From a virus, in the IMG/VR virus record IMGVR_UViG_3300009285_000077, positions 1 through 30,361 of that record: a stretch of 30,361 bases of DNA. The stretch is one strand, 5' to 3'. Shown piece after piece: positions 9,724-30,273 of the stretch; position 1 is the stretch's first letter, and each line of letters starts with the position of its first letter. Made by a program: the position numbers and the translations under genes. The notes below the pieces were generated by a model. It saw only the letters and a program-made list of their open reading frames with translations, was not told the origin of the DNA and searched no databases.

Positions 9724-9954
9724 ATGAGAAAAATATCCGCAGATGAATTGATTGAAGCTCTTTATAATCAGAAGCCAGTTCAATATTGGGAAATCGGAGA
9801 AGAAATTATCGATTCGATACGAATGGCAAAAGACGAAACAGGAATATACCTTGCGTGCAGTAATGGCACGAATTGCGAAAGTTTGCTTGGGTATAAAATA
9901 AAAATTGTATCAGGCGATGGATATCGTTTTGTTACTGAAGGAGTGACAAAATGA
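9724..9954 (+). CDS. Hypothetical protein (76 aa), AT-rich
   Basis: A 76-residue acidic protein of unknown function: MRKISADELIEALYNQ, then a conserved-looking core of mixed strands and helix ending IVSGDGYRFVTEGVTK. No membrane segment or known motif is seen. The ribosome site is strong (GAGAGGTGA, 5-8 nt before the ATG). Base composition is visibly more AT-rich than the capsid and connector genes. Together with its place after a hairpin this suggests a more recent insertion, of the kind called a moron. It overlaps the next gene by ATGA, so the two are probably made together. Confidence 0.65.
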   Translation: MRKISADELIEALYNQKPVQYWEIGEEIIDSIRMAKDETGIYLACSNGTNCESLLGYKIKIVSGDGYRFVTEGVTK

Positions 9955-11294
9955 GTCTTGAATCAGGAGAACGTCAAGTGTCTGAGACAATCGATGGAAT
10001 TCGGCGTGACCATGTGGCTCGCTACGAGTTTGTGGCAGGATTTATCCCAGAAGGCAGTGACGTGATCGACTTTGCATGTGGCATTGGCTACGGCTCAAAT
10101 ATCATGGCGAATGCTGGCATGAAGGTCGCCGCGTTCGATATTGATGATGAGGCGCTGGAATATGCTGGTCAGCATTACGCGCACCAGAACGTCACATTCA
10201 TGAAGCAGGACGGGAATGCTCCGTCGATTGAAATTGCCGCAGACTACGCAGTATCGTTCGAGACTATTGAGCATGTTGAAGATCCACGCCCGCTGCTGAA
10301 GTATTTGCGATGTGCGAACAAGCTGATTGCCAGCGTGCCGAATGAATCGGTGATGCCGTGGATGCGCGAAGATGGGGCTGTGACTGCGTTCCACTTTCGC
10401 CATTACACGAAGAACGAATTTGCCGAGCTACTGATTTCGTGCGGATGGCACCCGGTAGAATGGTACGGCCAGGAAGGGCCGGAGTCTGAAGTAGAGCCGA
10501 ATGTGCACGGGCGCACGCTCATTGCGGTATGCGAAAAGATCGACATACCAGAAACGACTGATGACGAAGAGCGGCACATTGCGATTCTCGGACTCGGCCC
10601 TTCGCTGGATCAGTACTTGGAAGTGACCAAGCGCCTCGGCGGTAGATCGAAGTTCTGCCACGAGACATGGGCAATAAATGCCCTTGGCAATGTGTTTGAC
10701 TGCGACTTGATTTTCCACATGGATGACATCCGCATCCAGATGATCAGGGCGGAAGCATCGCCACAGTCGAATATTGCCGCGATGGTTGACTGGATGAAGC
10801 ATAGCAAAGTGCCGGTGATTACAAGCAGGCCGCACAAAGACTTTCCGGCGATGGCTGCATTCCCTCTGGAGGATGTGCTTAACGTGCTGGGCCATGACTA
10901 TTTCAACAACACTGCGGCCTATGCTGTGGCGTTCGCGATCTATACCGGGGCCACGAAAATTAGCCTATTCGGGATGGACTACACCTACCCGAACGCGCAT
11001 GATGCGGAAAAGGGCAGGGCGTGTGTTGAATTCTGGCTTGGCCAGGCGCATGCAAGGGGCATCAAGATCAACCTGCCGAAGACCACGACGCTGATGGATT
11101 CTATGTATCCTCGTGCGTCAAGGCTATACGGTTACGACACTCTGGATGTGGATTTCAACATGCAAGAGGATGGCCGTCTCAAGTTGAAGTTCACTGAGCG
11201 CGAGAAACTGCCAACGGCTGCAGAGATCGAGCGCAACTATGACCACTCGGCCCCGATTGCAAAGCAGCATCAATCGACAAAGGAAGCGACATGA
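9951..11294 (+). CDS. Class I methyltransferase fused to DUF115-like Rossmann domain
   Basis: A two-domain protein of 447 residues. Residues about 1-195 form a class I SAM-dependent methyltransferase: motif I DFACGIGYGS (40-49), an acidic motif II region AFDIDD (61-66) and the motif IV-like SFETIEHVEDPRPLL (102-116), as in UbiE/Methyltransf_11 enzymes. Residues about 208-415 form a second Rossmann-like domain: HIAILGLGPSLDQYL (209-223), the WAINALGNVFDCDLIFHMDD segment near 240-259 and TKISLFGMDYTYPNAHD near residue 340. This layout recalls DUF115 / MptE-like and sialyltransferase-like (GT42) domains, which also occur in phage head regions. The substrate is unknown. Modification of a glycan or nucleotide-linked group is an inference. 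The gene overlaps both neighbours by ATGA. Confidence 0.75.
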   Translation: MSLESGERQVSETIDGIRRDHVARYEFVAGFIPEGSDVIDFACGIGYGSNIMANAGMKVAAFDIDDEALEYAGQHYAHQNVTFMKQDGNAPSIEIAADYAVSFETIEHVEDPRPLLKYLRCANKLIASVPNESVMPWMREDGAVTAFHFRHYTKNEFAELLISCGWHPVEWYGQEGPESEVEPNVHGRTLIAVCEKIDIPETTDDEERHIAILGLGPSLDQYLEVTKRLGGRSKFCHETWAINALGNVFDCDLIFHMDDIRIQMIRAEASPQSNIAAMVDWMKHSKVPVITSRPHKDFPAMAAFPLEDVLNVLGHDYFNNTAAYAVAFAIYTGATKISLFGMDYTYPNAHDAEKGRACVEFWLGQAHARGIKINLPKTTTLMDSMYPRASRLYGYDTLDVDFNMQEDGRLKLKFTEREKLPTAAEIERNYDHSAPIAKQHQSTKEAT

Positions 11295-13482: not shown

Positions 13483-14133
13483 ATGTCTATCAGTCTTCCT
13501 AACGGTGCGATTGTATCCATCGCTTCCGGCTATGGCGCGTCTAAAGTAATGTCTGTATTGACCAATGCGAATCCGGCTGTTGCAACACTTGAAGCGTCTC
13601 ACGGCGTTGCGACCGGTGACTATATCGAGGTAACCTCTGGCTGGTCGCGCTTGACGGATAAGATCGTCCGAGCCGGCACAGTATCTGTTAATGATGTGCC
13701 TCTTGAGGGTTACAATACAAGCCTGACATCGATTTATCCTGCCGGAACTGGCACCGGCTCTGTGCGAGAGATCACCGGATGGACTCAACTGTCGCAAGTT
13801 CTGTCGAGCACATCCAATGGCGGCGAGCAGCAGTTCCTCGAATACCAGCTGCTGGAATCCGACGCGCAGAAGCGTATCCCGACATTCAAGAGCGCAGCTG
13901 GTCTGACTATGAGCATTGCCGATGATCCGACACTTGCCGGTTACATCCTGGCTTCCACCGCCAACGATGACCGCCTGGCGCGTGCTGTGAAGGTCGTTCT
14001 GCCGAATGGCGCGATCTTGCTGTACAACGCCTACATCTCGCTGAACAAGACCCCATCGCTGACGGTGAACGAGATCATGGCCGTCGAGGTGACGCTGTCG
14101 TTGCTGAACGAGCCAGTGCGCTATGCGTCGTGA
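13483..14133 (+). CDS. Major tail tube protein
   Basis: Major tail tube subunit, stacked as hexamers around the tape measure. The 216 residues have an N-terminal IVSIASGYGASKVMSVLTN, then GDYIEVTSGWSRLTDKIVRA and VPLEGYNT. The core follows: EITGWTQLSQVLSSTSNGGE, RIPTFKSAAGLTMSIADDP, and LPNGAILLYNAYISLNKTPS. The order before the chaperone and tape measure is diagnostic. A good ribosome site (AAAGGGAAA) fits high expression, and unlike its neighbours the gene does not overlap the gene before it. Confidence 0.92.
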   Translation: MSISLPNGAIVSIASGYGASKVMSVLTNANPAVATLEASHGVATGDYIEVTSGWSRLTDKIVRAGTVSVNDVPLEGYNTSLTSIYPAGTGTGSVREITGWTQLSQVLSSTSNGGEQQFLEYQLLESDAQKRIPTFKSAAGLTMSIADDPTLAGYILASTANDDRLARAVKVVLPNGAILLYNAYISLNKTPSLTVNEIMAVEVTLSLLNEPVRYAS

Positions 14134-14146
14134 TCGGTGAAGGCAC

Positions 14147-14458
14147 ATGGCTAAACTCAAACTAGTAGCGAATCCGACATTCAAAGCGAAGGTCGGCATC
14201 CCGGTAGCCGGTGGCGATCCTGTTGATGTTGAGATGACATTCAAGCATCGGACGAAAGCCGACCTTGAAGAGTTCATCAAGACCCGCGCAGGCAAGGACG
14301 ACATCGACTCGTTCATTGAAATGGTCACCGGCTGGGAGCTTGACGATCCATTCTCGAAAGAGAATGCCGAAACACTGCTGCAGAATTACGCCGGTGCAGG
14401 TCTGGCTACATTCAAGACCTACATCGACCAGCTCGTACAGGCGCGCTTAAAAAACTGA
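14147..14458 (+). CDS. Tail assembly chaperone, short (unshifted) form
   Basis: Tail assembly chaperone of the lambda gpG kind, the short form. The 103 residues start MAKLKLVANPTFKAKVGIPV, include VEMTFKHRTKADLEEFIKT and end QARLKN at the TGA at 14456. Helical and acidic, it has the usual size for this family. It binds the tape measure during tail assembly. The last three sense codons before the stop, TTA AAA AAC, carry the slippery heptamer, so a fraction of ribosomes should continue in the -1 frame to make the long form. Confidence 0.9.
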   Translation: MAKLKLVANPTFKAKVGIPVAGGDPVDVEMTFKHRTKADLEEFIKTRAGKDDIDSFIEMVTGWELDDPFSKENAETLLQNYAGAGLATFKTYIDQLVQARLKN

Positions 14459-14769
14459 AAGCCTCCGCCGTCGCGATCTATTCCAAGGGCGCGAACGAAG
14501 CGGAGGCAGCAGCATACGGACTGACACTTGCTGAGGCAGAAGAGGCCAGAGCGATTGACGTTTGGCCTGACAATGCCGAATCGGTGAACGTGTTCATCGC
14601 CATGAGCACTCAATGGCGAATCGGCAACAATGGCGCGACCGGACTGGATTATAATGCACTGAAACCAGTCATGGAATTCGTGAAGGTGCGCGACCAGCAA
14701 CAAGTATTTGAGGACATCCGAATCATGGAAGATGTGGCCTTGTCTGTAATCAGGGAGTCGAAGAAATGA
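14147..14769 (+). CDS. Tail assembly chaperone, long form by -1 frameshift
   Basis: The long chaperone (lambda gpGT-like), made when ribosomes slip back by one base at A AAA AAC (14449-14455). The -1 frame is open from the slip site to the TGA ending at 14769. It adds 104 residues beginning LKASAVAIYSKGANEAEAAA, then DVWPDNAESVNVFIAMSTQW, and GLDYNALKPVMEFVKV. The WP.N...F.....TQWR.G..G..GLDY pattern is that of DUF1799-type chaperone C-termini. The fusion is about 207 residues. The downstream half has no good ribosome site of its own until an internal ATG at 14584, which would split the conserved domain. The ORF ends in an ATGA overlap with the tape measure. Confidence 0.88.
14449..14507 (+). 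promoter_or_regulatory. Programmed -1 frameshift site with stimulatory hairpin
   Basis: Slippery heptamer A AAA AAC (14449-14455) in the frame of the short chaperone, 0 nt before its stop codon. A perfect 8-bp GC-rich stem GCCTCCGC (14461-14468) / GCGGAGGC (14500-14507) starts after a 5-nt spacer, the usual distance for a frameshift stimulator. The 31-nt loop contains two CGCG elements that could pair inside it. Confidence 0.85.
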
Positions 14770-17165
14770 CCGTACTCGGGCAAGGCATTATCGAATTAAG
14801 CGCAGACGGCTCTAAGCTGAATGCCGCCATTGCTGAGGCCAGAAAATCAATAGAAGGCCTTGGCAAGTCGTCCGGCCAGGCTACAAAGTCCGCATCACAA
14901 TCAATCGACCGATACATTCAGAGCCTTGAAACACAGGCCAAAACAATCGGCAAATCCACCCGCGAACAAATCGCCTACAAGCTCGCACTCAGGGGCGCAT
15001 CAGATGAGCAGCTGCGCGCTGCTGATAATGCTCAAAGACTGATCGAGGCGCATAGAGAAGGCGCGAAGGTTGGCGATCAACTACGCACCGGATTTATTGC
15101 GCTTGGTGCTGCTGCAGTTGCTTCACTGGGCGCGCTGGCATATGCATTCGATTCTCTGGTGAAAAAGACCGGAGTCTTCCAAGACCTTGCAGAGTCAATC
15201 GGCGATACAGCGGTCAACGTGGCATCGCTTGCTGTTGCTGCTGGCACTGCAGGACTCAGCATGGAATCAGTTGCCGGGCTGTCGCAGAAGTTGACCAAGA
15301 ACCTTTCCGGCGTTGATGACGAAAGCAAGAGCGCTGGTGCTGCTTTGACAGCGCTCGGAATTGACATTGCAGAGTTTAAGAAGCTGAACCCGACTGACCA
15401 GCTTGAGACTGTCGCGAAGGCGATGTCCAACTTTGAAGATAGTTCTACGAAGTCAGCTGTAGCCATGGCGCTGTTCGGGAAATCTGGCGCCGATGCGATC
15501 CCGTTCATGAAAGAACTTGCGGCAGAAGGTGGCCGTCAAAATATCCTGACCGCAGAGCAAATTCGCCTTGCAGATGAATATTCCGATCGTCAGGCGAAGT
15601 TCCGCACAGAGATCGGATTGCAGGCTCAGGTAATCGCATCAGACTTGATCCCGACGATCAACGCATTCACGGATGCGATCATGGAGATTGCACGAGATCA
15701 GGAATTTGTGGCAACTGCGACGGCATTCTTGAAAGGTGCTATATCAGGCCTTGTTGAGATATTCAAAGTAGTAACCGTGGTCGGGTCAGATGTGATGTTT
15801 GTATTGACATCTATCGGCCGAGAAGCTGGGGCAATAGGCGCGCAACTTGTCGCGCTTGCTACGCTTGATTTGGAAGGCTTCTCAGCGATTGGGGATGCTG
15901 TCAAGAAGGATGCCGCAGAAGCCAGGGCGGAGCTTGATCGTTTTCAGGCGAAGGTAATGTCGATTGGTACTGCTTCTGCAAAAATGGTCGAGCAGGTCAA
16001 AGAGAAGTCAGAAGTCAAACGGCCGGCGCTGAAATTCACCGGCGCAGTGAAAAAAGGCGAGGACGAAAAAGAAGCCAAGGCCGCGCTTGACAGGCAACTA
16101 GCCAGCATCAAAGCGGCTGCTGAAAAAGAAATTGCCGCAAATGCGTACAAGGAAAAAGAACTGGATGCAGTTCGATCTGCCGGGATCATCTCTGAGCAAA
16201 GCTACTACCAGCAGAAGAGAAATCTGCTCGAGTCGAATGCAAACATCCAGAAAAATGCGATCTTTGAAGAGCTGAAAGCCCTCAATGCGCTTGACCTTAA
16301 AGGCGCGGCCAAGGACGAAAACGACAAGAAGATCATCGAGACCCAGGCAAAGCTGAGCAAGCTATATCTCGAGACCGCATCAAGCCTGAACGTACTCAGC
16401 ATTCAGATGGGCAGCATGACTGAGAATGCCAACTTTGCCGATGCGATGGCAATCGGGATTGATAACTTCAAGCTATCTCTGGTCAATTTGTCTTCAGAGG
16501 CAAGCAAGGCCGTCGAGTCTGCGATGAGTTCGGCTGTCGATGGTATTTCTAAGAGCATTTCCCAGGCCATTATCTACGGCAAAGATCTTGAAGATAGCCT
16601 GACGAATGTCGCGCTCAACATAGCTGATGCTTTTATTGCTGCGTTTATCAAGATGCATATTCAGAAGCTCCTGCTAGATAAGACAGCAGCCGCTGGGTAT
16701 GCCGCATCTATGGCCGCAGAAGCCGAAGCGATGGTGGCAATGGCAGGCCTGAATGCGTATGCGTCAACAGCGGCTTTCCCGGTGACAGGCCCGATTGCCG
16801 CACCAGCAGCGGCAGCGGCGGCAGTTGCTGCTGCACAAGGTTTTGCAGCAACAGTCATTGCAGCTTCAGCCGCATCTGTTGGCGCCAGGGCATTGGGTGG
16901 CCCGGTATCCGCTGGCGGAATTTACCAGGTGAACGAGAAAGGCCCTGAGCTGCTGACGGTTGGCGGCAAGGACTTCTTGATGATGGGGCAGAATGGCGGG
17001 ATGGTTACGCCCAATAATAGCCTTGGTTCGCAGGTGATTGATAATACCGTTATAAATATTGACAGCCGCACAGACCGCATGCAGATATTGCGCGATGTCG
17101 AGCGGATGATAGAATCAGGTCACGCAAGATGGACTGACCGTCTCCAACGTAAAGGTCAATTATGA
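14766..17165 (+). CDS. Tape measure protein
   Basis: Tape measure protein, which sets tail length and is ejected at infection. The 799 residues begin MTVLGQGIIELSADGSKLNAA, followed by long helical and Ala-rich segments. Hydrophobic stretches occur near residues 115-135 (GFIALGAAAVASLGALAYAF) and 150-165. Charged coiled-coil regions lie at about 430-530, and an Ala-rich hydrophobic part at about 660-710. The C-terminus ends RKGQL after a DRMQILRDVERMIESG segment. At about 0.15 nm per residue, a known rule of thumb, the tail would be near 120 nm. The start overlaps the chaperone stop by ATGA. Confidence 0.95.
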   Translation: MTVLGQGIIELSADGSKLNAAIAEARKSIEGLGKSSGQATKSASQSIDRYIQSLETQAKTIGKSTREQIAYKLALRGASDEQLRAADNAQRLIEAHREGAKVGDQLRTGFIALGAAAVASLGALAYAFDSLVKKTGVFQDLAESIGDTAVNVASLAVAAGTAGLSMESVAGLSQKLTKNLSGVDDESKSAGAALTALGIDIAEFKKLNPTDQLETVAKAMSNFEDSSTKSAVAMALFGKSGADAIPFMKELAAEGGRQNILTAEQIRLADEYSDRQAKFRTEIGLQAQVIASDLIPTINAFTDAIMEIARDQEFVATATAFLKGAISGLVEIFKVVTVVGSDVMFVLTSIGREAGAIGAQLVALATLDLEGFSAIGDAVKKDAAEARAELDRFQAKVMSIGTASAKMVEQVKEKSEVKRPALKFTGAVKKGEDEKEAKAALDRQLASIKAAAEKEIAANAYKEKELDAVRSAGIISEQSYYQQKRNLLESNANIQKNAIFEELKALNALDLKGAAKDENDKKIIETQAKLSKLYLETASSLNVLSIQMGSMTENANFADAMAIGIDNFKLSLVNLSSEASKAVESAMSSAVDGISKSISQAIIYGKDLEDSLTNVALNIADAFIAAFIKMHIQKLLLDKTAAAGYAASMAAEAEAMVAMAGLNAYASTAAFPVTGPIAAPAAAAAAVAAAQGFAATVIAASAASVGARALGGPVSAGGIYQVNEKGPELLTVGGKDFLMMGQNGGMVTPNNSLGSQVIDNTVINIDSRTDRMQILRDVERMIESGHARWTDRLQRKGQL

Positions 17166-18719: not shown

Positions 18720-21427
18720 TTGAAAAAGCGGGGGACGCTCTTCTCGGTGTAGGCGAATTTGTCTACGGCGTGCAGCTCAAGATTCTTGGAGGGCTATTTC
18801 CAAAAGAGCCGAAGCGAACAACGTCAAGAGACATCCAAGATAGGACAATCACAGCCGTTGATTCTGAGTCCCCTCACACTTATATTTATGGGCGCGCCCG
18901 CGTAGGGTCTGCGGTTGTGGCAGTTCTGACCAGTGGCGCACGAGATGAGTACAAGCACATCGTATGCGTTCATGCCGCGCACGAGTGCCATGAGATCGAA
19001 GAGATATATATTGCAGGCCGTCCGCTGGGTGCGCTTGATGGAAATGGCAATGTGACCACTGGCGATTATTTCATCACATCGAAATCGTTCTACGATTATT
19101 TATTCACGGGGACTTCAGGGACATTGCCGCATACGCCAGATGCTGGATCGGTGCGGGTTTTTGTACTGCCTGAATTTTCTGGGGTGTATGTTGAAATTTT
19201 CACCGGCTTCACGATTGTTGGAACGAGCATTACGACAGTCGATTCTGGTAATTACAAAGTCAACTACAGCACAAGTTCAGGTACTCCATATGTCCGTGTG
19301 AGCAAGCATCTCGGCGCACCTAATCAAGCTGCCGATGCCGGACTGATTGCAGAAATTCCAGCGAAATGGGACGCAAATAGAAAGCTCTCAGGAATGTGCT
19401 ATACGGTTATTCGACTGAATCTGAACTTCAGAGATTTCCAAAGCGGCATGCCTGAAATCGAGGCGCTCATAAAAGGCCGGAAGCTGCACGACGTTCGGTC
19501 TGGTTCATACCCTAATGACGCGCCTGCATGGTCTCAGAATCCTGCTTTGATCATTGCTGACTACCTCACCTCAGAAATGTGCGCTGTGCCGTGGACTGAC
19601 TTGCCATTGGCTGATTTTATCGCGGCTGCGAACGTCTGCGATGAGTCCACAATCTATGGCACGAAGTATCTCGCGAATGGAGTAGTAACCTCTGACGACA
19701 AGCAATCCGAGGTATTGAATCAACTCAGCCAGAGCATGGCTGGGTCTATCGTATCGACCACATGGGGCGTACAGGCAGGCAAATATATTGCACCAGTGCT
19801 AAGCCTTTCTCAGTCTGATATCGTTGGCGAGTTTTCGTACACAGCCGGAGTCCCTGAAAGCGACCTGTTCAATGGTATCAAAGGCCAGTACATCAGCTCC
19901 GCTAATCTGTACGTCGCGACAGACTTCCAGCCGTACACCAATGCCTCATATGTGACTGCAGACGGTCAAGATCTGTGGTCTGATATTGACTTCATGTTTA
20001 CCGATGAAAAGCAGCGCGTGCATAACCTTGCGCGCATATTGATGGAAGATCAGCGCAATGCGTTCACCATAACCGCCGACTTCTCGTATAAAGCATGGGA
20101 CTTGAAAATCGGCCAGCGCGTGACGTTCACATCGTCATTGCTCGGGCAGACGAATAAGGTTTACCGCCTATTGAATAAAACATTCGGGCCGACTTCTGCG
20201 GTGCAGTTGACACTTAAAGAAGATGCAGAATCTATCTGGGACTTGGCCGATGCTGTGCTGGCTGATGAAACGCCGAATACAGATTTGCCGAATCCATTTA
20301 CGGTAGGGGTTCCAGGCAATCTGCAAGTGACCGAACAACTCTATGAAACTACCGGAAGCTCAGGCGTAAAGGTAAAGCTGACCGTATCATGGGACGCGCC
20401 TGCAGATGCTGCCGTTCAGGATTACGAGCTGACTTACAAGAGCTATTTAGATGCTGACTTTGTTTTAAAATATTTCACGATCAATGAGACTGTAGAAATA
20501 CTTGATGTGGCCGATGGCAAATATGATTTCAGAGTCCGCGCACGGAATCACCTGAACCTGTTTAGTGATTGGACAGCAGTCAAGACAGTGACTGTCTATG
20601 GCTTGTACACTCCGCCTGGCAACGTCCTTAACTTCACCGTGAAACCGTTCAACGGCTCTGCTTTGTGTAATTGGACAAGAACTGTTGACCTCGATGTGAA
20701 GATCGGTGGTGATGTTGAGATACGATTCTGCCCGCTCACTATAGGTGCGTCATGGGAGCAGTCGATAATTCTCCCGGATGGTAAGTTCAACGGGGATGCA
20801 ACTAGTGCATTCGTACCATTAGCAACTGGAACTTATTACGCAAAATTCATCGACTCAACAGGTCAATATAGCGCTACTCCAGCATCATTCGTAGCAACAG
20901 AATCGCTTGTTAGAGGATGGTCAACTGTTGCCACATCGACACAGCACACAGCTTTTTCAGGTTCAAAGACTGGCGTTGCTGTTTTAGATGGGAAACTTAA
21001 ACTGGATGGGACATCTCTAGTATCTGAATGGGGATTGATGTCAACTCTTGGGTATATAGGAAGTATTGGCGGTATTACTCAAATAGGCACATATTTATTT
21101 GATGCCACGTTAGATTTATCTACTATATCCACGAGAAGATTTCACACTCATATAAAATCGCTCTCGTACAATGCGGCTGATTTTATTTCACTCAGAGGGC
21201 TTGTAAGCACATGGAATAGTGTAATTGGAGACGTTATTAATGACACCAATGCAACCGTGTGGATAAGCGTTTCTGACGACGACTTGACCTATACAGATTG
21301 GGTTCCGTTCATGGTTTCTGATTTTAATTGCAGGTATGCAAAATTCAAAGCAATATTAGAAAGCTATGATGTAACACATAATATTGACATTAGCGAATTA
21401 TCAATTTCTGTTAAAATTCCTGTATAG
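18707..21427 (+). CDS. Tail tip attachment protein J (central tail fibre/hub)
   Basis: Large tail-tip protein of the lambda gpJ type, forming the hub and central fibre that meets the host receptor. The 906 residues begin near a hydrophobic YGVQLKILGGLF and run through TSRDIQDRTITAVDSESPHT and YIYGRARVGSAVV, AAHECHEIEEIYIAG, and WSQNPALIIADYLTSEMCAV (about residue 270-290). DFSYKAWDLKIGQRVTFTSS (about 460) then leads to fibronectin-like beta domains (about 540-730). From about residue 730 the DNA becomes AT-rich and the protein changes character, ending in a discoidin-like beta segment (WISVSDDDLTYTDWVPFMVS). The ATG at 18707 is preferred over the TTG two codons earlier, with AGAAGG about 7 nt upstream. 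Confidence 0.9.
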   Translation: MGEIVEKAGDALLGVGEFVYGVQLKILGGLFPKEPKRTTSRDIQDRTITAVDSESPHTYIYGRARVGSAVVAVLTSGARDEYKHIVCVHAAHECHEIEEIYIAGRPLGALDGNGNVTTGDYFITSKSFYDYLFTGTSGTLPHTPDAGSVRVFVLPEFSGVYVEIFTGFTIVGTSITTVDSGNYKVNYSTSSGTPYVRVSKHLGAPNQAADAGLIAEIPAKWDANRKLSGMCYTVIRLNLNFRDFQSGMPEIEALIKGRKLHDVRSGSYPNDAPAWSQNPALIIADYLTSEMCAVPWTDLPLADFIAAANVCDESTIYGTKYLANGVVTSDDKQSEVLNQLSQSMAGSIVSTTWGVQAGKYIAPVLSLSQSDIVGEFSYTAGVPESDLFNGIKGQYISSANLYVATDFQPYTNASYVTADGQDLWSDIDFMFTDEKQRVHNLARILMEDQRNAFTITADFSYKAWDLKIGQRVTFTSSLLGQTNKVYRLLNKTFGPTSAVQLTLKEDAESIWDLADAVLADETPNTDLPNPFTVGVPGNLQVTEQLYETTGSSGVKVKLTVSWDAPADAAVQDYELTYKSYLDADFVLKYFTINETVEILDVADGKYDFRVRARNHLNLFSDWTAVKTVTVYGLYTPPGNVLNFTVKPFNGSALCNWTRTVDLDVKIGGDVEIRFCPLTIGASWEQSIILPDGKFNGDATSAFVPLATGTYYAKFIDSTGQYSATPASFVATESLVRGWSTVATSTQHTAFSGSKTGVAVLDGKLKLDGTSLVSEWGLMSTLGYIGSIGGITQIGTYLFDATLDLSTISTRRFHTHIKSLSYNAADFISLRGLVSTWNSVIGDVINDTNATVWISVSDDDLTYTDWVPFMVSDFNCRYAKFKAILESYDVTHNIDISELSISVKIPV

Positions 21428-21435
21428 GGGGTAGT

Positions 21436-22743
21436 ATGTCACAAGAAGATTACATAATTTCAGACCAAGCAGGCGTTGCTTTTTTGGCTGACCTGAACGC
21501 GCACCTTGGCGCGATTGCTACTAATAATAGCGGTGCAACAGAGCCAACAACAAAGTACGCATATATGTTGTGGGCAGATACCACAACCGGCTTGCTCAAG
21601 CAGCGGAACGCAGCAAATACGGACTGGGTGACACTCGGAACGATGGCAGATGCCACACTAGGCCTATTGTCCAGGGCAGGCGGTAACATGACCGGCGCGA
21701 TCAATGAGGCGCGCTCTACCGTTGCCTCTGCAACCACACCTGATATCTGGACTGGCACCGGCAACAACATCAACTACACCGGCACGACTACTGCGACAGG
21801 ATTTGCTGCATCGCCACAAGCTGGTGCAAGCCGCGTACTTGACTGTGCATCGACAGCGGCTTTTACTGCCGGTGCAAATATGCTCATAGATGGGTATTCA
21901 AGCGGACAGACGCTGACAGTTGCGGCAGGTGATCGTATTTCAGTATTCGCACGAACAACTACACAATTTGTTTTGGCTAAAGTCAATAATTTGACAACAA
22001 CAGCAGCGGAAAAGTTACCTACGATTGGATGTACTCAATCTGGTGGCGCGCTTACTTTTTCAGCGTCTGCACAGTACCTTGATTTCAGATCAACAACACT
22101 AACAAGTGGAACAATATCGACTGTTCTAGCTACACCATCTAACCTTGTCCTTCCTTCTGGCGCGACTCTCGGAACAGTCACAACAGTATCCGCACGAATC
22201 GTAGTTGTAGAAATAAATAATGCCGGAACAGCAGAACTTGCTATTGTAAATCTTGCTGGTGGAAATGATCTTTCTGAAACCGGAACAATAAATACGACAG
22301 CAATTGATACAGCGTCTGATTCGGATAACGTGTTCTATTCAACCACAGCTAGAACTGGTGTTGCTTATCGAGTTGTTGGCGTAGTTGACGCAGTTAACAC
22401 CGCAGGCGCTTGGGGTAACCCAACATTGGTACAAGGTGCTGGTGGGCAGGCCGTTACGGTTATGAGTTCATTTGGTTTCGGGGCCACTTTTGTTGATGTA
22501 ACTGGAAGCAGGACTATTGGTGGAACATATTACAACACCTATGGCAAACTTATTGAGGTTTACATAAGCGCATCTCATACCGCTGCATGGGAGGGCGAAA
22601 TGACAATAGGGGGAGAATCATTTAAAGCTCCTTATATGTCAGCAGTGGGAACACAGATGGGGTATACATGGAGGATCCCCGCTTGGAAATCGTACTCGTA
22701 TGCTGGGCCATCAACATTAATCGCATGGAAAGAATTTAGATAA
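21436..22743 (+). CDS. Tail fibre protein
   Basis: Probable tail fibre of 435 residues. The N-terminal 75 residues (FLADLNAHLGAIATNNSGAT, then MLWADTTTGLLKQRNAANTD and WVTLGTM) are a phage fibre anchor seen in many siphoviruses. A collar LSRAGGNMTGAINEARSTVA follows. The middle is a Thr/Ala-rich beta region, and the C-terminus ends with AYRVVGVVDAVN, an aromatic segment (GYTWRIPAWKSYSYAGPSTL) and KEFR. The composition is more AT-rich than the upstream genes, like the C-terminal end of the preceding gene, so both may be a swapped host-range cassette. It starts 8 nt after the previous stop with GGGGGTAGT as ribosome site. Confidence 0.82.
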   Translation: MSQEDYIISDQAGVAFLADLNAHLGAIATNNSGATEPTTKYAYMLWADTTTGLLKQRNAANTDWVTLGTMADATLGLLSRAGGNMTGAINEARSTVASATTPDIWTGTGNNINYTGTTTATGFAASPQAGASRVLDCASTAAFTAGANMLIDGYSSGQTLTVAAGDRISVFARTTTQFVLAKVNNLTTTAAEKLPTIGCTQSGGALTFSASAQYLDFRSTTLTSGTISTVLATPSNLVLPSGATLGTVTTVSARIVVVEINNAGTAELAIVNLAGGNDLSETGTINTTAIDTASDSDNVFYSTTARTGVAYRVVGVVDAVNTAGAWGNPTLVQGAGGQAVTVMSSFGFGATFVDVTGSRTIGGTYYNTYGKLIEVYISASHTAAWEGEMTIGGESFKAPYMSAVGTQMGYTWRIPAWKSYSYAGPSTLIAWKEFR

Positions 22744-22753
22744 AGGGTGACTG

Positions 22754-23146
22754 ATGCAATACTTCAACGTAAATAATACAGTTCACGTGCTAGATGATGG
22801 AATTAACCCTTCCGATTTCATCAAGCAACCATTTATATCAATTACCAAAGGACAGGCAGATGCTATGCTTGCACCACCCCCTCTTACTGCCGAACAGCAA
22901 CTATTAGCCATACAAGGGCAGATTGACACACTTGAAAAAGGATCAATCCTTAATCGGATGATGCGAGAATGGTCAGTTGCAGAACTTGAGAAAGCGGCCA
23001 TTTCCTACGGTGCAGCACAAATCCCTGCCCTCACTGCTGCCCAGTCTTTGGCTTATGCCTACTCGACTAATATCGCGTACAAGAAGGTCAAAGACCTCGA
23101 CGTTCAAATAACCGCTTTGCGTACTCAAATGGATGCCATATTATGA
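22754..23146 (+). CDS. Tail fibre assembly-like protein (130 aa)
   Basis: A 130-residue protein located directly after the fibre, as fibre-assembly chaperones usually are. The N-terminal half (VLDDGINPSDFIKQPFISIT) is mixed; from about residue 40 it is helical (LTAEQQLLAIQGQIDTLEKG, SILNRMMREWSVAELEKAAI) and ends with VKDLDVQITALRTQMDAIL. It resembles proteins annotated as phage tail fibre assembly or DUF4376-related, but the match is not strong. The stop overlaps the next gene (ATGA at 23143), linking fibre and lysis cassettes. Confidence 0.55.
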   Translation: MQYFNVNNTVHVLDDGINPSDFIKQPFISITKGQADAMLAPPPLTAEQQLLAIQGQIDTLEKGSILNRMMREWSVAELEKAAISYGAAQIPALTAAQSLAYAYSTNIAYKKVKDLDVQITALRTQMDAIL

Positions 23147-27540: not shown

Positions 27541-27788
27541 TTCCGCCACTTCTTCCTGTATGCTGCATCGCAGGCGGTACACATTGTTGATATTGCCACG
27601 CCTCTTTTGTTGATCCGGCGCGGTTCAGTATGGCAACGTGAGCATGGCTTGTGACCATTCTTCGCGTAGTTATCCTGGGTTTGTCGCGACACAGATTTCG
27701 TCGGTATTTCAGTCAGCGGCGGCGCAGATGTTGCACTCATCAGCATATCTGCCAGAGATTGAGCTTGAGGGATTTTGATTTCGCTCAT
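27537..27788 (-). CDS. Zinc-ribbon protein (83 aa), paralogue 2
   Basis: An 83-residue protein with SLADMLMSATSAPP near residue 11 and a zinc ribbon GHKPCSRCHTEPRRINKRGV, then STMCTACDAAYRKKWRK. The cysteine pairs are CxxC at about 49-52 and about 70-73. It is clearly related to the 84-residue protein at 25136-25390 in both the leading SLADML box and the ribbon, yet the two genes stand at opposite ends of the minus-strand operon block. A small DNA- or RNA-binding factor is a fair guess. It starts in an ATGA overlap with the exonuclease stop. Confidence 0.75.
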   Translation of the reverse strand: MSEIKIPQAQSLADMLMSATSAPPLTEIPTKSVSRQTQDNYAKNGHKPCSRCHTEPRRINKRGVAISTMCTACDAAYRKKWRK

Positions 27789-29395
27789 GCCTTAGCCTTC
27801 ATCCTTTCTGCAGTTTCCATCACCCAACTGAATGCGGTATCGTAGGTGACGTTGAAGATGGCTGCGATGCTGGTGATAAGTACGGCGTCACTTGGGCGCG
27901 GTTGCTTAATATCGACGATGCCAATTACGTAAGCAGTCTCATCAACAGTTTTCGGATTGCTTTCCGATATTGTTCCCAGTATCTTTTCGGCAATATCTGC
28001 TTTCTTAAAAGATTCAGCTCGCTGATCTGCTTCAACCTTTGCGCGGGCCTTCCACTCTTCCTCTGCCTGAATGCGTGCGCGCTCAGATTCAAGTCGCGCA
28101 GCCTCATCAGCTTTCTGATTCTCGATCCGGCTGGTGATGGTCAAGGTGAAGTATTCCATCGGCTTCGATATGAGATTTTGCAGGTCGGGGAATAGTGCGC
28201 TTTGACCGGCAGCGTTTTCCCTGCACCATGCCAGCTTGGCGCGGGTATCCTTGGCAGATGCATCCGCTTCAATCTTGCCATGCGCCAATGCTGTATCCAG
28301 AGCATCCTGCATTGATGCCAGCGATTTCAGCCCTTTGATTGCGCCGCTAAAGTCTGGGTGCTGAACAACGAGGCGTACGCCAGTTATCTCAGCCTGCAGT
28401 GCGGTATAGTGGGCATTAAAAGCAATGCGCGCCTTGTCGCACATCGCCAGCTTGCGCGATTCCTTCTCCGACTTCACCAGCTTGTCAAGCTTCAAGCGCA
28501 CATCGGCCAGCTTCTGCTTGTAAAAGTCCATCGTGCGCATCACTTCGTCGATGCTTGTTGCCTGGGCGGTGATGGCCTTCTTGGTTTGCTCGATACCATC
28601 CTCTGCAGATTTGCAGGCCTTGACATTTGCCTCTGCGTCTGCAAAATCTTGATCTGTTTCCAGTTCGGTCTTGATGCCGGCTAGGAATTGATCTGCAGCC
28701 GATACGAATACCGGCAGGTTGCTGGTGGTTACTTCACCCTTGATCGTCACCGCCAGCGATGGCAGGGCCATGATTGCGGTGGCTGTTGGCTTTTCAACTT
28801 CAGCCTCTGGCACATAGGCAGCAACATCCTTCTCGAATTGCACCCAGCCAGCAACAAGACGGGCGCGCAGTTCAAAGTCTGGGTAGCAGGTAAAATGCAC
28901 CTCCTCAACCAGCTTGTCGTCCTTGCCGAATTTCGTCGCCATGAACAAGCACTCTTTGGCGTCAGAAATCATAAACTGCTGCTCGATTTGCACTTTGTAT
29001 TGGTCGTCAAGATCGTCTGCGCATGTATATGATCGAATTTCATCATTTAATGACTTGTGTTCGAAAATGGTTTTTTTGTCGAATGTTATCCCGTCAAAGC
29101 TGGCGCTATATTTCTCATATACGCTATTAACGCCGGTCACAGGAGACAAATCCTCACCGATTATCGCTTCTGCCAGTGGTCTCGCAAGCGCCTCAAATCG
29201 GTGGCCGTCATTAAAACGGCGCTGGGTTGCATCATCCACCTCCGGCACGATGCCGGTGGCGCGCTCTTTGATGAGCTGTGCGCGGGTCTTGTATTTGCTC
29301 AAGCCCATCATCGCAGGGGCATCGCTGGCGTTCAATGATGTGGCGCGGTGAGCGTGCCATTCAGGGCTTCCTTGTACAAGTGTGAGAATCTTCAT
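27785..29395 (-). CDS. YqaJ / lambda-exo-type recombination exonuclease with C-terminal extension
   Basis: Exonuclease of the YqaJ / lambda-exo kind, which resects double-strand ends for the RecT partner. Of its 536 residues the first 215 or so are the nuclease: LVQGSPEWHAHRATSLNASD, GHRFEALARP with E68, SASFDGITF with D101, and FEHKSL with E112 and K114, as in the D...ExK core of lambda exo; VQIEQQFMIS follows. Residues about 220-536 form an extra charged coiled-coil part (FADAEANVKACKSAEDGIEQ; RLESERARIQAEEEWKARAK), reminiscent of DUF1351-type phage proteins. The ATG at 29395 is chosen because it overlaps the RecT stop as TAATG; an upstream start would reach into recT. Confidence 0.88.
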   Translation of the reverse strand: MKILTLVQGSPEWHAHRATSLNASDAPAMMGLSKYKTRAQLIKERATGIVPEVDDATQRRFNDGHRFEALARPLAEAIIGEDLSPVTGVNSVYEKYSASFDGITFDKKTIFEHKSLNDEIRSYTCADDLDDQYKVQIEQQFMISDAKECLFMATKFGKDDKLVEEVHFTCYPDFELRARLVAGWVQFEKDVAAYVPEAEVEKPTATAIMALPSLAVTIKGEVTTSNLPVFVSAADQFLAGIKTELETDQDFADAEANVKACKSAEDGIEQTKKAITAQATSIDEVMRTMDFYKQKLADVRLKLDKLVKSEKESRKLAMCDKARIAFNAHYTALQAEITGVRLVVQHPDFSGAIKGLKSLASMQDALDTALAHGKIEADASAKDTRAKLAWCRENAAGQSALFPDLQNLISKPMEYFTLTITSRIENQKADEAARLESERARIQAEEEWKARAKVEADQRAESFKKADIAEKILGTISESNPKTVDETAYVIGIVDIKQPRPSDAVLITSIAAIFNVTYDTAFSWVMETAERMKAKA

Positions 29396-30261
29396 TACGC
29401 ATAACCTTTCGTCCAAGAGTTAATTTCATCAATCACATCAGGCGGCAAGTTGTATTTTGCCGATAAGAAGTCGATCAGGTTCTTGGCAGTTTCATCGCCC
29501 TGCTCAATCAGCGATTTCGGGCAGAACTTCGTCACCACGCCTTCATCGTCGATCTTGTCTTTGCCGAACTTCGCAAGCAGCTCGTCCTTTGTGAGCGGTT
29601 TCAGTTCTGTCTTGATCTCGCGGATGACCGCATCAACTGTCTGCGCGCTGTCAAATTCCTTGCCTTCCATTTCGTCGGCAGTCGGGGCCGACCCCAATTC
29701 AGGGAATGCTTTACGCAGAGCCTGTGCTTCTGCGCACTTGGCAAGCTGTGCATATGGGCGCTTTGTCCACATCGCATTAGGTGCTACGCTTTTTTCCTTG
29801 CCGCCCTTCATGGCGTAGTTTTCTTTCCATCGCTCTGTGGCGGCGTATTCTGCGATCTGGCCACTAGCCAGGATACGCTTAACGATCACCTTGCAGCTGA
29901 CCGGGTACGTGATTTCAACGCCGCCGATGGTTTCTATTTTATCCGACCCGAATTCAGGTTCGGTAACACCAGCGCACTCGCCAGTGCGCGCCATCTGCGT
30001 GCGATACAGGCCGATACCTGGCATCACTACATCGCGCATTTCGCCAAGTTTGCTATCGTAGATTGGCACAATATGCACAGGCTTCTGCATCGGGTCTAGC
30101 CCAGACGCTTGGCAATATCCAAGCACCATCTTGATCGAATCAGTCTGCGCGCCTGGATACAAACTGTTGCGCAGAATGTTTATTAGGTCGGCTTCGCTCA
30201 TGGCGGACATGGTAGTGCTTTTGGTTTGTGCTGCGAGTCCAGTTCCTTTTTTTTCGTTCAT
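29395..30261 (-). CDS. bet: RecT/Bet-type single-strand annealing protein
   Basis: Single-strand annealing protein of the RecT/Bet superfamily, which pairs the strands left by the exonuclease. The 288 residues include CQASGLDPMQKPVHIVPIYD (about 50-69), VVMPGIGLYRTQMARTGECA, the YPVSCKVIVKR segment and MWTKRPYAQLAKCAEAQALR plus KAFPE, all hallmarks of phage Bet proteins. The C-terminal third is acidic and variable. The ATG at 30261 has TGGGGAT 6 nt upstream and is preferred over an upstream TTG at 30273. It overlaps the exonuclease start by TAATG, so the pair is co-translated. Confidence 0.93.
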   Translation of the reverse strand: MNEKKGTGLAAQTKSTTMSAMSEADLINILRNSLYPGAQTDSIKMVLGYCQASGLDPMQKPVHIVPIYDSKLGEMRDVVMPGIGLYRTQMARTGECAGVTEPEFGSDKIETIGGVEITYPVSCKVIVKRILASGQIAEYAATERWKENYAMKGGKEKSVAPNAMWTKRPYAQLAKCAEAQALRKAFPELGSAPTADEMEGKEFDSAQTVDAVIREIKTELKPLTKDELLAKFGKDKIDDEGVVTKFCPKSLIEQGDETAKNLIDFLSAKYNLPPDVIDEINSWTKGYA

Positions 30262-30273
30262 TTTTATCCCCAA

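Follow-up and report, generated by a model that had tools for sequence, protein, structure and literature searches.

A conserved AAC-type slippery heptamer directly followed by a stop codon in the tail chaperone genes of a tailed phage: a probable programmed −1 frameshift joining TAC_4 and DUF1799

The window, i.e., the whole 30,361-nt stretch of IMG/VR record IMGVR_UViG_3300009285_000077 analyzed here, carries on its plus strand two overlapping small ORFs located between the genes for the tail tube and tail tape measure proteins. The tail tube gene (13483..14133) encodes a Phage_tail_3 protein (PF08813, E 1.8e-53) and is followed by an ORF (14147..14458) for a 103-aa short tail assembly chaperone of the Phage_TAC_4 family (PF08748, E 2.7e-26; 92.7 bits against a Pfam gathering cut-off of 21.1), which also matches PHROG 569 and 17368 and is assigned a putative role like that of lambda gpG. 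The second small ORF lies in the −1 frame. Its extension beyond the first (14455..14769) adds 104 residues up to a stop codon at 14767-14769 and encodes a DUF1799 domain (PF08809, E 1.3e-21; 77.1 bits against a gathering cut-off of 26; PHROG 680, E 2.5e-32), putatively with a lambda gpT-like role. The ATG of the tape measure gene (14766..17165; PHROG 2854 and 1538) overlaps this stop, and the order of tail tube, TAC_4, DUF1799 and tape measure genes is thus that of lambda V-G-GT-H. The presumed partner of the TAC_4 part is the tape measure protein, and that of the DUF1799 part the tail tube protein.

The remainder of the window represents a tailed-phage structural module (terminase, portal, protease, major head protein). 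A gene pair for a RecE-like exonuclease and a RecT-like annealing protein (27785-30273) is found on the minus strand, opposite to the structural module. Between the head and connector genes, a 447-aa ORF (9951-11294) matches a family of phage tRNA methyltransferases only weakly (E 3.9e-05). In the tail fibre region (19501-23000), the G+C content drops from ~0.54 to 0.45, which suggests exchange of a tail fibre segment. A search for near-identical phage records found none, no solved structure matched the TAC_4 or the DUF1799 part at E up to 0.1, and scanning the window for Rfam families and for tRNA/tmRNA genes gave no match. As for annotation, PHROG 569, 680 and 17368 give both parts of the chaperone the label "tail length tape measure protein", which recurs in RefSeq phage records; this looks like a propagated misannotation.

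Inspection of the sequence showed that the zero-frame chaperone ORF terminates with CGC TTA AAA AAC TGA, in which the heptamer A AAA AAC (14449-14455) is in X XXY YYZ phase with respect to the zero frame and is adjoined by the TGA stop (14456-14458). The −1 frame is free of stop codons from 14344 to its terminator at 14767-14769, and passage into it at the heptamer would yield a fusion product of ~207 aa with the junction RLKN-LKASAV. The AAAAAAC string alone is unremarkable, occurring six times in the window against 3.65 expected by chance. In-phase X_XXY_YYZ heptamers are rare (17 per 7085 codons in 23 ORFs), and the one at 14449-14455 is the only one of the 17 with a stop codon directly 3' of it. 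The preliminary description, made from the letters of the window, had placed a −1 frameshift of a tail chaperone at this heptamer, with the −1 frame open to 14769 and encoding a DUF1799-like tail, and its coordinates proved exact and its interpretation is supported in substance.

When viral and genome contigs were searched with profiles, 133 unique homologous junctions were obtained, and in 132 of them the second domain lies in the −1 frame. The only zero-frame junction (L004, 3001-3573, on a contig shared with L104) is a natural in-frame TAC_4-DUF1799 fusion, devoid of the slippery site and of ~15 hinge residues; it shows directly that TAC_4 and DUF1799 are able to form one chain, with the reservation that it is a single metagenomic contig, for which an assembly error is possible. 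An in-phase heptamer was found at the same residue in 131 junctions, reading GGGAAAC (73), AAAAAAC (53), TTTAAAC (3) or GGGAAAT (2). The remaining −1 junction, L026, likewise reads AAAAAAC TGA and was absent from the count of 131 on account of a stop further upstream in its zero frame, so that an XXXAAAC/T slippery site is kept in 132/132 non-fused junctions. That earlier stop is a TAG (~1364) in the zero-frame chaperone ORF of L026, with the downstream heptamer and −1 frame intact. Among 15 named phages, 13 possess AAAAAAC or GGGAAAC, and the other two, Klebsiella phage JVSB2 and Escherichia phage phiEB49, an A_AAG-type site. The latter two read CAA AAG CCT TAA (L194, ~1072-1084) and GCA AAG GTC TAA (L196, ~992-1003), respectively, with the stop one codon later. 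An upstream Shine-Dalgarno-like stimulator was also considered and rejected, as none is present in the window and only 16/131 homologues have one.

The spread of heptamers bears on whether the fused frame could be made by transcriptional slippage on the A run. The six A residues at the site are compatible with such an origin, yet about half of the homologues use GGGAAAC, which offers no long homopolymer, at the same place and in the same phase; moreover, the X XXY YYZ phase of the heptamer is constant, and the sequence just after it is enriched in structure. We therefore consider slippage of the polymerase extremely improbable. Nearly as improbable is the arrangement annotated in many GenBank records, in which DUF1799 is made as a separate protein via re-initiation or internal initiation. 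Several related phages are indeed annotated with two separate CDSs, and in 70/131 homologues an ATG of the −1 frame lies no more than 30 codons from the site. In the window, however, the −1 frame contains no ATG, GTG or TTG from 14344 until a GTG at 14584 (residue 44 of the extension), and a start at that codon would lose the N-terminal fifth of the DUF1799 match together with the conserved WP. With no such codon before the domain interior, separate initiation is unlikely in the window. Thirteen homologues also lack a conventional start before codon 30, and in the alignment unbroken homology extends as far as the heptamer and takes in an invariant Leu and an invariant Ala; both points argue against a separate start.

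The best-conserved extra feature of the junction is the immediate zero-frame stop, which the preliminary description quoted without interpretation. It follows the heptamer with no gap in 128/131 homologous sites and in 53 of the 56 lines left after thinning, where it is TGA in 34, TAA in 15 and TAG in four. The −1 codon lying over the stop position specifies Leu in 56/56 thinned lines and is CTG or CTA in 52 of them and CTC in three, whereas elsewhere in the same ORFs CTA accounts for 37/530 Leu codons and CTC together with CTT for 194/530. The next −1 codon begins with A in 50/56 lines. The stop is more frequent than Leu codon usage would predict, and this pattern points to selection acting on the nucleotides for a stop at that place, beyond the amino acid alone.

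Downstream of the heptamer, we confirmed the perfect 8-bp stem reported in the preliminary description, GCCTCCGC (14461-14468) pairing with GCGGAGGC (14500-14507) after a 5-nt spacer. This outer stem is part of a larger stimulator-like hairpin (14461..14507), with inner pairs 14469-14471/14495-14497, 14472-14475/14490-14493 and 14478-14479/14486-14487; over 60 nt, the minimum free energy is −27.8 kcal/mol. No dinucleotide shuffle out of 200 was as stable (z −4.07), and only 0.4% of protein-preserving synonymous-codon shuffles folded as well (z −3.2, p ~0.004). The 60 nt after the heptamer also show excess structure in the family: for 60 loci thinned to ≤80% identity, the mean synonymous z was −1.02 (t −5.2), while at seven other positions in the same gene it ranged from −0.04 to −0.38, so that the enrichment is confined to the site. 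Of nine tested members of the close clade, the window included, seven gave z < −1.8.

The exact pairs are another matter. Among 14 near relatives, the register of the window's own stem is paired in 65% of cells, a value reached by 29/500 shuffles, while a neighbouring register is paired in 74% of cells in the near clade, matched by 0/500 shuffles; the neighbouring register shifted by three columns obtains a similar covariation score. As the stem register moves between the 14 near relatives, RNAalifold assigns them almost no consensus energy (−2.5 kcal/mol). A clear hairpin is missing from many distant GGGAAAC relatives. The preliminary description had proposed checking the stem by covariation and had named, as what would refute it, related phages lacking both heptamer and stem. 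This check favours the proposal as regards the heptamer, which is retained; for the stem, a hairpin in general is supported at that place, but not the exact register, and in many distant relatives no clear hairpin is seen. The hairpin could be fortuitous, arising where alanine-rich codon runs (GCC..GGC) flanking the loop pair by chance, in which case the site would work without it. This would touch the stimulator only and is compatible with the frameshift itself. It would fit the poor sharing of the window's register, the shifting of stems by a codon among relatives and the frequent lack of special structure in distant GGGAAAC relatives, but it accounts badly for the rarity of equally stable folds among shuffles preserving protein and codon usage, for the low z of most close-clade members and the restriction of the family enrichment to this place, and for the neighbouring register supported across the close clade. 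On balance we regard chance pairing as unlikely. Alanine-rich coding may nevertheless contribute part of the hairpin signal; the synonymous control is directed at this effect but may not remove it entirely. Judging by these comparisons, a strong hairpin after the site is conserved in near relatives, with the exact stem register private to this phage, and a stable hairpin just after the site appears to be selected in the near clade while its pairs drift in codon steps.

Homologues of the lambda gpG/gpGT frameshift were reportedly surveyed by Xu, Hendrix and Duda in 2004. The lambda heptamer is G_GGA_AAG, with AAG as the A-site codon in contrast to AAC in the window, and the protein families differ as well (lambda G/T versus TAC_4/DUF1799). 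In lambda, the site lies between the genes for tail tube and tape measure, and a −1 shift shortly before the first ORF ends fuses a second small domain to the first (PMC5009743). The window shares this layout of two overlapping small ORFs between the same two genes: the first has an in-phase heptamer close to its end, the second is in the −1 frame and, as in the lambda class, the slippery site is conserved. A downstream structural stimulator is optional in that class; here a stimulator-like hairpin is present, although its exact register is not conserved.

Taken together, the directly observed site, phase, domains, gene order and conservation leave little doubt that programmed −1 ribosomal frameshifting yields a minor tail-chaperone fusion; from them we infer the slippage itself, its efficiency and the bound partners. 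Most ribosomes would decode TTA AAA AAC TGA and terminate there, giving the 103-aa TAC_4 chaperone, while a minority, with the help of the hairpin, would slip by −1 on A AAA AAC and continue through DUF1799 to give the fusion. In lambda, the first chaperone part binds the tape measure protein and the second the tail tube protein, at a need of ~30:1 for short form to fusion (PMC5009743). By analogy, abundant short copies may coat the tape measure protein, the C-terminal part of the fusion may recruit the tail tube protein, and the ratio of the two would matter for tail assembly. Certain points speak against this reading, namely that A_AAA_AAC is rated poor in E. coli, that the exact stem pairs are not conserved and that several distant relatives have no clear hairpin. 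As for the first, the motif reportedly works with low efficiency in E. coli and is used by bacterial IS elements (PMC4066793); since a low ratio of fusion to short form suffices in lambda, and given the use by IS elements, the motif fits.

Among the closest counterparts are the "tape measure chaperone" pairs of Drexlerviridae and HK639-like phages (TfmA/TfmS; Smarc2), which share the Pfam families, heptamers and immediate stop, but whose chaperone part is ~35% identical to that of the window and which are mostly annotated as two separate genes. Serratia phage Smarc2 is the only one among the named phages examined whose record gives a joined "pre-tape measure frameshift protein". A tail chaperone of archaeal viruses resembles that of the window in heptamer type, possessing "mammalian-like" AAC heptamers (PMC5009743). 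A stop immediately 3' of the slippery heptamer is also known from unrelated viruses and proteins (PMC4373837), a likeness in mechanism only. In other phage chaperone sets, the distance from site to stop averages 26-36 nt (PMC10885494), unlike the window, where the stop directly follows the heptamer. A limited literature search found no paper naming both DUF1799 and frameshifting, no relevant paper on TfmA/TfmS and no description of a family-wide AAC-plus-stop site.

The tightly kept stop allows a further, tentative reading, in which XXX-AAA-C and the immediate stop form one cassette: with the stop in the A site after translocation, slippage would compete with the release factor, mostly RF2 because TGA dominates, and the speed of termination, more than the variable hairpin, would set the ratio of short form to fusion. 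We hold this to be possible, though it is rather less probable than not. Alternatively, the stop could simply serve to terminate the short form at the earliest point. If the cassette reading were true, the family would represent a natural E/P-site −1 slippage system in bacteria.

The window is an additional member of the known tail-chaperone frameshift class, a device found in many tailed phages; it is ordinary in kind and has a consistent AAC-plus-stop site. It supplies a complete gene model for a tail-chaperone pair that is widespread and that is often entered in databases as if the two small genes were unrelated. The AAC heptamer with its immediate stop, present in dozens of diverged phages, constitutes a natural series for testing bacterial −1 slippage with a stop in the A site, and the same series bears on why phages retain a site rated poor in E. 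coli.
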